A stretch of DNA of 30,992 nucleotides. Origin: a virus. The stretch covers positions 1-30,992 of IMG/VR virus record IMGVR_UViG_3300043470_000170. The stretch is one strand, 5' to 3'. This document shows positions 1 through 30,736 of this stretch, in pieces. Under the pieces are notes generated by a model. It searched no databases. It was not told the DNA's origin and was given only the letters and a program-made list of their open reading frames with translations. The translations under genes and the position numbers were made by a program. How positions within the stretch are numbered: the first letter of the stretch is position 1; each line of letters begins with the position of its first letter.

Positions 1-56
1 TATTTTTCCCGTCTGCTCTTACAGATGCTCAACTAATTGAACTCACTACATTATGA
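1..56 (+). CDS. C-terminal end of LamG-like tail fibre protein (partial)
   Basis: Only the last 17 codons are inside the window. They read FFPSALTDAQLIELTTL and are identical to the end of the complete fibre gene at 28647-30359. The stop TGA (54-56) overlaps the next start as ATGA. This is either the same gene met again at the other end of a circular or terminally redundant genome, or a second copy of the fibre gene whose body lies outside the window. Confidence 0.85.
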   Translation, partial: FFPSALTDAQLIELTTL

Positions 57-433
57 TATTCCGTAAATATGCCTTTGCTGACTGGGCAACATCCAAAGCA
101 GCAATACAAGTAGAAGTAACAACACCCGAAGGGGTAGAACTCGTCTGGAATCAAGACCTCGTTGCCTGCGTTGTGGAAATCGGCCACCTATGTACGCAAT
201 GGGGAACCGATGCCGAGGGTATGCAAGTATGCGAAGCAACAGACCCACTCTACGCCGTGGATATTGTATGGCAGGACACGGCTCTTGCTGCTTACGATAG
301 TGCGTTGGTATGGCCTAACCCCGTTGGCGTAAACTCTTTTGGTTACACTCTGGACACCGAATACGCCCAAGCGTTTTGCGTAGCCAATCCCGAAGCAGCA
401 TACTGTCAACCTCCAGCACCAATCGAACAATGA
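53..433 (+). CDS. Hypothetical protein between fibre and lysis genes (126 aa), copy 1
   Basis: The function is not recognised. The protein is acidic and soluble-looking, with no signal peptide or membrane segment. It contains several Cys (CVVEIGHLC, then VCEATDP, AFCVANP, YCQPP) and ends in a Pro-rich tail. It starts in an ATGA overlap with the fibre gene and ends in an ATGA overlap with a small membrane protein, so it is probably co-translated with both. Its place between a receptor-binding fibre and the lysis genes would suit a fibre chaperone or small tail protein, but that is inference. A second copy with about ten residue changes lies at 30356-30736; the changes cluster in the middle (MQ/LP, DT/ES) and at the C-terminus. 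Confidence 0.85.
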   Translation: MIFRKYAFADWATSKAAIQVEVTTPEGVELVWNQDLVACVVEIGHLCTQWGTDAEGMQVCEATDPLYAVDIVWQDTALAAYDSALVWPNPVGVNSFGYTLDTEYAQAFCVANPEAAYCQPPAPIEQ

Positions 434-3682: not shown

Positions 3683-3707
3683 GTGTTTCAGTAGCGACTG
3701 GTTGACA

Positions 3708-3723
3708 GCCCGGAAAGACGGGC
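3708..3723 (+). promoter_or_regulatory. Hairpin just upstream of the tRNA-like element
   Basis: GCCCG-GAAAGA-CGGGC makes a 5-bp GC stem with a 6-nt loop, 5 nt before the tRNA-like acceptor strand. It is followed by AATTT only, so it is a weak terminator at best. Its 5' arm could also pair with CGGG in the acceptor strand, so the two structures might compete. Confidence 0.4.
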
Positions 3724-3728
3724 AATTT

Positions 3729-3849
3729 AGTCGGGTGGCGCAATGGTAAACGCATCAAATTAGGTTACTGCATAAAATACTTACTAATTTGATTATTCAC
3801 GGCAGCGGATAGTATCCGAGTATTGTAGGTTCGATTCCTACCCCGACTA
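3729..3849 (+). tRNA. tRNA-like element with aberrant anticodon arm
   Basis: Most of a cloverleaf is present. The acceptor stem AGTCGGG (3729-3735) pairs with CCCGACT (3842-3848), followed by an A discriminator. The D arm is TGGCGCAATGGTAAACGC (3736-3753) with a 3-bp stem and the GG of the loop. The T arm is GTAGG-TTCGATT-CCTAC (3825-3841), fully canonical. A 5-bp hairpin CGGAT-AGT-ATCCG sits where a class II (Leu/Ser-type) variable arm would be. The anticodon arm is abnormal: ATCAAATTAG (3754-3763) pairs perfectly with CTAATTTGAT (3784-3793) around a 20-nt loop, so no anticodon can be assigned. Total length is 121 nt against about 75-95 for a normal tRNA. No CCA is encoded. A strong terminator follows at once. 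It may be a tRNA with an insertion, a decayed tRNA, or a tRNA mimic serving as an RNase P processing site. Confidence 0.6.
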
Positions 3850-3850
3850 C

Positions 3851-3880
3851 AAAGACCCCTCTCCGGAGGGGCTTTTTTTT
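3851..3880 (+). terminator. Intrinsic terminator after the tRNA-like element
   Basis: CCCCTC-TCCG-GAGGGG (6-bp GC stem, tetraloop, 3856-3871) is followed by C and eight Ts. AAAG before the stem can pair with CTTT after it. It ends the P2 transcript and abuts promoter P3. Confidence 0.92.
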
Positions 3881-9116: not shown

Positions 9117-9337
9117 AAACACTAACATTCAAAATTGCAGACCGTCTGGACGAATTAGCTGGAGAGTGGTCTAAACACACCCCACAATGCGAGGCATTGA
9201 TGATGGCAGCAAAAGAGGTTGCGACATTTGAGCAAGAGGAAAAAGACCGAATGGTTGACTTCGCATACAAATACGGAAACTTGACCCTTCGTGAGATTTC
9301 AGATGCTTTTAACAAGGAATATAAGAACGAGAAATGA
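9113..9337 (+). CDS. Helical protein of unknown function (74 aa)
   Basis: Not recognised. It is a charged, all-helical protein. Its C-terminal part (KYGNLTLREISDAFNKEY) could be a degenerate HTH. ATGA overlaps with both neighbours. No membrane segment or metal motif. Confidence 0.72.
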   Translation: MKTLTFKIADRLDELAGEWSKHTPQCEALMMAAKEVATFEQEEKDRMVDFAYKYGNLTLREISDAFNKEYKNEK

Positions 9338-28647: not shown

Positions 28648-30359
28648 TGAGTTTTTACGACGACAGTTCTCTGGTAGTAATTCCCAGCGGATACAAGACA
28701 AGCAAGGTATATGCCGAGAAGCCAACAGATGGCTCAGGGGATTTAGCGTTCACCCGTACAGGGGATACGGCTACTCGTGTAAATTCTGCGGGGCTGATTG
28801 AGAAGGTGCGGACTAATTTGTACACATACTCGCAAGCATTTGCAAATGCAGCTTGGTTAACTATTGATACAACAAAGGTCTCAACTTCTGCAACCGACCC
28901 AAATGGCGGAACAACCGCAGCAAATGTGACTTGGACTGCTGGAACTGGTAGGTATTTTTACCAAAACGTCGGCACTTCAAACATAGCGACTGTTTCATTT
29001 TATGTAAAATCAAATGGAGGAGGAAATAACTTTCGTTTTTTTGCAAATGGAGCAACATCGTTTAGCGCAAATTTAACGGCTACTTCAACTTGGACTCGCT
29101 ATTCTTTTTCTTTTACTGGTACTGGTGCGGTAGGCGTTGGAATTACAAACGCTTCAGACAATTCAGCTGCTAATTTACTATTTGCCTTTGCCCAGCTCGA
29201 AACGGGCGACATAGCAACAGACTACATACCCACCACCACCGCAGCCGTATCAGTTGGCCCAGTTGCTAACGTACCCCGTCTTGACTATTTAGGTAGCACT
29301 TGCCCCCGCTTGTTGCTGGAGCCACAGCGGACGAATAGTGCCCTATACTCGGAGCAGTTTAATAATGCGGCTTGGTCTAAAAATCAATCTACAATATCTA
29401 TAAATTCAGCGACATCGCCAGATGGAAATATGAGCGCAGATAAATTAGTTGAAGATTCATCGAATGCGTTTCACGACATAAACCAATTACCATTTAGCAC
29501 AACTGGCGGTCAAACTTATACCTTTTCTATATTTGTAAAACCAGATACAAGAAGTAAAATTAGAATAGGGTATGGGGCTCTTGTTAATTTTGACGCATTC
29601 GGAGGCGATGTTTTCGCAATTATTGACGTTAGTAATAAAAGCGTAATTTCTTCAGTTTTAAGCCCTACCATTTTATTTTCTGATTTTGAAAATGGATATG
29701 TTAGGGTTACTTTCTTAAAACAAGCCACTGGTAGCGGGCAGTTTAATTTAATTTTTGGCTTGGTAAATAACTCAAACGCAGCTTCATATTTAGGTGATGG
29801 AAGTAGCGGTTTATTTATTTGGGGCGCACAAGTTGAAGCGGGAGCCTACGCCACCTCTTACATTCCAACGCTTGCAGCATCCGCAACCCGTGGGGAAGAT
29901 TTTTACGCAAAAGCTGGCTTTGGTAATGTTTCAACGGCTGGCACTTTGTATTATGAATTTCAAAACTACCAAAGCCCAGCAGCTGCAAACGGCCTTTATA
30001 TGGTATGCCTTTTCGCTGGCTCTGCGGTAACGAGTACCGCTTATTCACCTGCCGAAAGTATTAGCATTATCAATAATGGAGTTACCGTTCAAGGTAGAAA
30101 TGACGGCCTTGCAACTACTTTGTTTAGTATTACGCCAGCTCTAAACGCAACGGTAAAGGTTGCTTTGCGCTACGACGGAACTAATGTAGTGGCTTTTGTA
30201 AACGGAGTGAAGGGGACAGTATTCTCCGATACTGCCGTAGGTGCAAAAAACGCAATACGAGTAAACAACGGAGAGAACGCAACGCACGCAACAAAGCAAC
30301 TATTATTTTTCCCGTCTGCTCTTACAGATGCTCAACTAATTGAACTCACTACATTATGA
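28647..30359 (+). CDS. Tail fibre with two carbohydrate-binding-like modules and a LamG-like end (570 aa)
   Basis: Likely receptor-binding protein. After a short N-terminal part with TRTGDTATRVNSAGLIEKV, two related modules follow: residues 55-196 (RTNLYTYSQAFANAAW ... TDYIPTT) and 228-408 (RTNSALYSEQFNNAAW ... TSYIPTL). Each begins with RTN and a Y-S-x-x-F-x-N-A-A-W motif and ends with YIPT, as in phage sugar-binding modules. The C-terminal ~160 residues (GTLYYEFQNYQSPAAANGLY, VKVALRYDGTNVVAFVNGVK, FPSALTDAQLIELTTL) are a concanavalin/LamG-like jelly roll. Base composition inside both modules drops in GC against the flanks, suggesting module exchange. The stop overlaps the 126-aa gene as ATGA. 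Confidence 0.82.
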   Translation: MSFYDDSSLVVIPSGYKTSKVYAEKPTDGSGDLAFTRTGDTATRVNSAGLIEKVRTNLYTYSQAFANAAWLTIDTTKVSTSATDPNGGTTAANVTWTAGTGRYFYQNVGTSNIATVSFYVKSNGGGNNFRFFANGATSFSANLTATSTWTRYSFSFTGTGAVGVGITNASDNSAANLLFAFAQLETGDIATDYIPTTTAAVSVGPVANVPRLDYLGSTCPRLLLEPQRTNSALYSEQFNNAAWSKNQSTISINSATSPDGNMSADKLVEDSSNAFHDINQLPFSTTGGQTYTFSIFVKPDTRSKIRIGYGALVNFDAFGGDVFAIIDVSNKSVISSVLSPTILFSDFENGYVRVTFLKQATGSGQFNLIFGLVNNSNAASYLGDGSSGLFIWGAQVEAGAYATSYIPTLAASATRGEDFYAKAGFGNVSTAGTLYYEFQNYQSPAAANGLYMVCLFAGSAVTSTAYSPAESISIINNGVTVQGRNDGLATTLFSITPALNATVKVALRYDGTNVVAFVNGVKGTVFSDTAVGAKNAIRVNNGENATHATKQLLFFPSALTDAQLIELTTL

Positions 30360-30736
30360 TATTCCGTAAGTACGCCTTTGCTGACTGGGCAACAGCCAAA
30401 GCAGCAATACAAGTAGAAGTAACAACACCCGAAGGGGTAGAACTCGTCTGGAATCAAGACCTCGTTGCCTGCGTTGTGGAAATAGGCCACCTATGTACGC
30501 AATGGGGAACCGATGCCGAGGGCTTACCCGTATGCGAAGCAACAGACCCGCTCTATGCCGTTGACATCGTGTGGCAGGAATCGGCTCTTGCTGCTTACGA
30601 TAGTGCGTTGGTATGGCCAAACCCAGTCGGAGTTAATTCTTTTGGTTACACTCTGGACACCGAGTACGCCCAAGCGTTTTGCGTAGCGAATCCTGATTCC
30701 GAATACTGCCAACCTCCAGCACCATTCGAGATATGA
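30356..30736 (+). CDS. Hypothetical protein between fibre and lysis genes (126 aa), copy 2
   Basis: The counterpart of 53-433, same length, with about ten residue changes (for example S14A in ATAKAAI, GLPVCEA for GMQVCEA, QESALAA for QDTALAA, and the end PAPFEI for PAPIEQ). The conservation of length and frame with many silent changes shows purifying selection on both copies. It starts within the fibre stop as ATGA. Confidence 0.85.
   Translation: MIFRKYAFADWATAKAAIQVEVTTPEGVELVWNQDLVACVVEIGHLCTQWGTDAEGLPVCEATDPLYAVDIVWQESALAAYDSALVWPNPVGVNSFGYTLDTEYAQAFCVANPDSEYCQPPAPFEI

Follow-up and report, generated by a model that had tools for sequence, protein, structure and literature searches.

What is encoded at a site where a DNA sequence has the shape of a tRNA gene and a hairpin stands where the anticodon arm should be? 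This question is raised by a 30,992-base virus record of IMG/VR (the window, that is, the whole stretch of DNA analyzed here), in which such an element follows the last gene of an operon and precedes the terminator of that operon. The gene next after the terminator resembles a DnaB-type helicase. A sequence-only reading of the window had proposed that the element is either a tRNA mimic or a tRNA carrying a small insertion. The features of the locus are as follows.

3703-3723, plus strand: 5' module, TGAC-A and the hairpin GCCCG-GAAAGA-CGGGC (3708-3723), followed by AATTT; one of the recurrent GARAGA hairpins
3729-3849, plus strand: whole tRNA-like element, 121 nt (Rfam tRNA model 44.2 bits; family model R2 69.2 bits)
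3729-3735, plus strand: acceptor 5' strand AGTCGGG, partner of 3842-3848 (7/7 pairs here; all 7 covary family-wide)
3738-3753, plus strand: D arm of Leu type, stem GCG/CGC, loop CAATGGTAAA (sequence reading, isotype comparison)
3754-3793, plus strand: 10-bp hairpin ATCAAATTAG/CTAATTTGAT with a 20-nt loop, at the place of the anticodon arm (sequence, folding)
3754-3763 and 3784-3793, plus strand: the two strands of the 10-bp stem (sequence, folding)
3776-3824, plus strand: possible pseudoknot helix of AATACTT (3776-3782) with GAGTATT (3818-3824), abutting the T stem (read from the sequence)
3806-3818, plus strand: 5-bp hairpin CGGAT-AGT-ATCCG, resembling a variable arm (folding)
3825-3841, plus strand: T arm GTAGG-TTCGATT-CCTAC, 5/5 pairs (sequence, Rfam alignment)
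3842-3849, plus strand: acceptor 3' strand CCCGACT and discriminator A (sequence)
3856-3880, plus strand: intrinsic terminator CCCCTC-TCCG-GAGGGG, then C and T8 (sequence; kept in relatives without the element)

The sequence, its folding and the Rfam search agreed that the acceptor, D and T arms are intact, as had been read. That is, RF00005 matched the element from end to end with 44.2 bits (gathering threshold 29) and aligned the anticodon region as insertions, and no Rfam family other than tRNA reached its threshold. The perfect 10-bp stem with its 20-nt loop and the variable hairpin were also found where they had been described; after the D arm come this stem-loop, 12 nt, the 5-bp hairpin and 6 nt. 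An anticodon arm with a 7-nt loop and U33 is absent from the element and no CCA is encoded at its 3' end, again in agreement with the sequence-only reading, and the GC hairpin 5 nt upstream and the terminator downstream are both present. The minimum free energy (MFE) of the whole element is unremarkable (z -1.85). The loop pairing of AATACTT with GAGTATT may form a pseudoknot together with the 10-bp stem, and this candidate helix conflicts with the last pair of the hairpin at 3806-3818.

We compared the site with that of viral contigs encoding a helicase of 94-99% identity. Most of these relatives are without the element, and only a few bases separate GACTGGTT from the terminator; a normal anticodon loop, which the earlier reading had named as a finding in related phages that would speak against it, was found in none of them. 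Judged from this empty site in most close relatives, the window element is therefore an accessory insertion. Near-identical copies are present in six contigs (L001, L003-L006 and L008), and a further one (L002) has the 3' end only. The sole variation among the copies is a change of T to C at 3815 in L005, L006 and L008, by which a pair of the 5-bp hairpin is lost. The 10-bp stem is unchanged in the complete copies, all known copies being near-identical. A phage about 84-89% identical to that of the window (L235) carries a different element, of 89 nt, at a site corresponding to about window position 9332. Its relatives and promoter-like TANNTTTG motifs are the grounds for assigning the window phage to Bacteroidota, and they do not prove it. 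A 300-nt direct repeat, 94% identical, lies at the ends of the window (1-300 and 30304-30603) and spans near-identical 126-aa ORFs (53-433 and 30356-30736); an imperfect terminal repeat and a duplicated gene are the two possible explanations.

The exact parts of the window element matched only its near-identical relatives. A looser pattern (AATGGTANNCGC, 45-75 nt, GGTTCGANTCC), which specified portions of the D and T arms and left the acceptor, position 48 and the discriminator free, matched at least 120 stretches in viral contigs. These matches are tRNA-like elements, mostly with the ends AGTCAGGTGGCGGAATGGTAGACGC ... ACAGGTTCGAATCCTGTCCTGACTA flanking very different interiors. When the exact 3' end was used as the query, at least 120 viral contig stretches were again obtained, which gave, among the matches listed, 169 unique elements of about 143 interior types, their acceptors being AGTCAGG or AGTTAGG. 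The D arms also vary in this sample and are non-standard in many of the AGTCAGG elements. After pooling and filtering of both samples, 245 unique elements of 59-182 nt and 199 types remained among the matches listed. Across this family the interiors vary far more than the ends. The phages that carry it span from about 30 kb to more than 200 kb, including one of 31 kb without any tRNA gene called by ARAGORN.

The window element scored 69.2 bits (E 4.3e-18) against a covariance model of 113 other elements, an alignment from which the window was absent and whose members were gathered with a first model holding the window as one of 60 members. Its match to the family is not due to chance. In the 60 aligned elements, 99.3% of the cells of the acceptor, D and T stems were paired (about 35% in slid structures), and two-sided changes occurred at all 7 acceptor pairs and at 3 T pairs. 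The covariation score was reached by none of 500 shuffles, and the result was repeated on the 113 elements.

The chassis resembles tRNA-Leu in particular. The D arm score was highest for Leu among 21 isotypes, in a comparison whose classes are slightly mixed because ARAGORN also names some family elements. The Leu-identity positions A15, T48 (3824) and A73 (3849) are present in the window element; across 96 interior types, A15-T48 was found in 90 and A73 in 80, and T48 was kept in 90 although the search had left position 48 out. On the same contigs, 37 of 39 tRNA-Leu genes have A15-T48, and Ser tRNAs mostly have G15-C48.

We also looked for an anticodon arm in the 96 interior types and found it no commoner than in shuffles, so that no tRNA appears to be interrupted; the suggestion of a tRNA with a small insertion was thus not borne out. 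In tRNA, the parts that are constant here are used by RNase P, the 3'-end enzymes and the CCA-adding enzyme and, for Leu, by the synthetase, and the anticodon part is used for decoding. The parts kept in the family are those of processing and of the synthetase and the part dropped is that of decoding, which fits a tRNA body serving as a chassis with the interior as its payload.

The interior itself bears signs of structure. Its folding was more stable than that of shuffles (mean MFE z -1.0, 96 types), and a helix of at least 6 bp ended 2 nt before the T stem in 33 of 90 types, compared with 9.7 in shuffles; the family prefers a helix that ends 0-4 nt before the T stem. Among altered interior pairs within types, 17% were compensatory and 36% broken, whereas the values in slid controls were 6% and 64%. 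No short sequence motif was common to the interiors above the level of shuffles. An antisense guide was considered and rejected: the longest complement of the interiors in their own contigs was 9.25 against 9.30 in shuffles, and for the window interior a match to the phage's own nearby sequence reached 9 nt and is not supported.

The elements appear in unrelated genomic settings. For 20 of 25 recurrent types the flanks on either side were unrelated between occurrences, and the interiors were often identical (as in L088/L091/L092 and L139/L168); recombination between the conserved ends would be a possible route of exchange. In four contigs (L100, L125, L149 and L201) one element has a common upstream flank and differing downstream flanks, which suggests recombination breakpoints at its 3' end. 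In some phages, several elements of different kinds alternate with ordinary tRNAs, and in the same arrays we observed a further chassis (L090:1635-1724 and L137:3767-3866) with the acceptor TGACTA or TGGCTA ... TTAGTCAA, the D arm GGTGTAATGG and a variable interior.

Matches in genome contigs were to Chitinophaga, Dysgonomonas, a Helicobacteraceae MAG contig and Paenibacillus; the Paenibacillus copy has terminase and portal-like genes (identified by eye) in its neighborhood and is prophage-like. None of 395 genomes from the phylum to which the Chitinophaga locus belongs had the AGTCAGG 3' end, against at least 120 viral stretches, which points to a phage-specific family. A host tRNA was rejected as the source, this 3' end being in no genome of the Bacteroidota sample, and the acceptor, D loop and T loop of the window element at a normal tRNA gap were found in none of the genome contigs.

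The GC hairpin that the earlier reading had placed upstream is a recurrent module. GARAGA hairpins with 5-bp stems occurred 24 times in 1.1 Mb of loci (about 1.1 expected), with TGAC before most of them and a tRNA-like element or a tRNA 3-6 nt after. A Microcystis phage and a gut phage each have the hairpin of the window ahead of tRNA-Leu genes. An unannotated tandem pair of GAAAGA hairpins lies upstream of a tRNA-Tyr region in cultured Vibrio phages of one group (L213:840-1080, L214:840-1100).

A second chassis was found in cultured Lactobacillus plantarum phages of several families. It reads GTGCTTG-TGGCGGAATAGGTAGACGC ... TGTAGGG-TGCAAAT-CCCTAC-CAAGCAC-A, with the ends GTGCTTG and CAAGCACA, and holds different interiors in elements of 59-214 nt, none of which is annotated as RNA. 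The elements of 8014-B2 and Bacchae (214 and 213 nt) are about 96% identical, stand in different flanks and belong to separate phage families, and a Hujiaoplasma phage record has one element of the GTGCTTG type too. In phage LP65, a tRNA-OTHER marked as a pseudogene (L327:570-652) adjoins the relative of the 8014-B2 element, and this relative overlaps a predicted ORF (orf80). The T loop of this chassis has G, not U, at position 55; together with the non-standard D arms of many AGTCAGG elements, this weakens any strict requirement for tRNA processing or leucylation.

From these findings taken together, we think that the element encodes an accessory phage RNA without a decoding function, in which a tRNA-Leu-like chassis defines and protects the ends of a variable structured payload, a reading to which we give a probability of roughly 0.6. 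The element would be transcribed as the 3'-terminal part of an early operon, RNase P and the 3'-end enzymes of the host would excise the RNA at its tRNA-like ends, CCA would be added, and the tRNA-like fold would shield the product. Leucylation by host LeuRS is possible and would be secondary. The diversity of the payload may be maintained through conflict with host defences or rival phages; this role, which is suggested by how diverse and numerous the elements are and by their transfer, is the weakest step of the reading. More tentatively, and with clearly less assurance than the chassis-and-payload reading, we consider that phages may share a natural tRNA-scaffold system. Its constant Leu-type chassis would be adapted to the host lineage and would accept many different small structured RNAs, exchanged even among unrelated phages, as effectors in conflicts with host defences or with other phages.

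The most serious alternative, which we nevertheless regard as unlikely, is a cis-acting signal for processing or stability, at which RNase P and 3' enzymes trim the operon mRNA or split the RNAs of arrays, the interior being filler. The position between the last gene and the terminator, the punctuation of tRNA arrays in other phages and the constancy of the ends agree with it, but the interior keeps its pairs by compensatory change and its type on transfer, and the relatives manage without the element at the same site. A leucylated decoy, whose acceptor half would bind host LeuRS, EF-Tu or a tRNA-sensing defence and in which only the missing anticodon arm matters, is somewhat less probable still. 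It draws on the Leu-type D arm, A15-U48 and A73, and bacterial LeuRS does not read the anticodon; however, it leaves the 199 interior types among the matches listed and their pairing constraint unexplained, and G55 in the L. plantarum chassis and the often altered D arm do not suit it.

The readings that keep a true tRNA fare worse. ARAGORN called no tRNA in the window at default settings and, with introns allowed, gave Ser(tga) or Pro(agg). These fits would speak for a functional tRNA with a small intron, but they contradict each other, the anticodon arm of the family is not above chance, and only 34 of the 169 elements in the 3'-end sample were called, with scattered anticodons. The 10-bp stem is without bulges, so that the bulge-helix-bulge motif of archaeal-type splicing is not visible, and we consider an intron very improbable. 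A decaying pseudogene could account for the absence of an anticodon and for a general tRNA model score below that of most normal tRNAs, but it deserves hardly any weight: in the family, more than 99% of the acceptor and T stem cells are paired, intact units are transferred repeatedly, and the strong covariation refutes decay. Neither a normal tRNA nor simple decay is supported. Of the two interpretations first offered, the tRNA mimic has thus held, as have the absence of an anticodon and the case against decay.

Among known systems, tRNA-Leu (class II, RF00005) shares the 7-bp acceptor, the 3-bp D stem, the Leu-type D loop, A15-U48, A73, the T arm and a variable-arm-like helix, whereas the family has no anticodon arm, its interiors are nearly all different, and ARAGORN names few of its members. 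RNA C and RNA D of T4 (species 1 and 2) are stable phage RNAs of a tRNA cluster whose function is unknown (PMC9697503). RNA C likewise has a tRNA-like T arm at its end and a large structured body, but its own D arm does not match, its acceptor is incomplete, and it is one fixed RNA without swapped interiors. As homologues both were rejected: RNA C scored 26 bits, mainly from the T arm, and RNA D gave no match. GOLLD and ROOL are phage or prophage RNAs, also of unknown function, found near tRNA islands (PMC12286853); unlike the family, they are much larger, conserved, cage-forming RNAs without a tRNA-like chassis. One contig (L161) has a GOLLD RNA at 1293-1710 (RF02032, 262 bits) and also four family elements and a tRNA cluster. 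Like tmRNA, the family retains the acceptor and T arm and replaces the anticodon arm, but it also retains the D stem; tmRNA was rejected for the window, where ARAGORN -m finds none and no tag reading frame was identified. In the engineered tRNA scaffold, foreign RNA is carried in a tRNA body that the cell processes and protects (PMC3753655); that is a laboratory construct, whereas the elements here are natural.

The component parts, namely the tRNA fold and phage tRNA arrays, are familiar, and an analogue exists in T4 RNA C. What appears to be new is a class with constant tRNA-Leu-type ends and freely exchanged, non-decoding interiors. The family is large and apparently undescribed: we found no description of this RNA class in the open-licence literature, and a preprint could exist. 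The usual view of phage tRNA genes is that they act as codon supplements or replace tRNAs destroyed by the host. The present elements are widespread tRNA-shaped phage genes that are unable to decode. Cultured L. plantarum phages carry such elements, so the question is directly testable. If they are expressed, the tRNA enzymes of the host would be producing a large and so far unexplored store of phage RNAs, and the laboratory tRNA scaffold would have an equivalent in nature.
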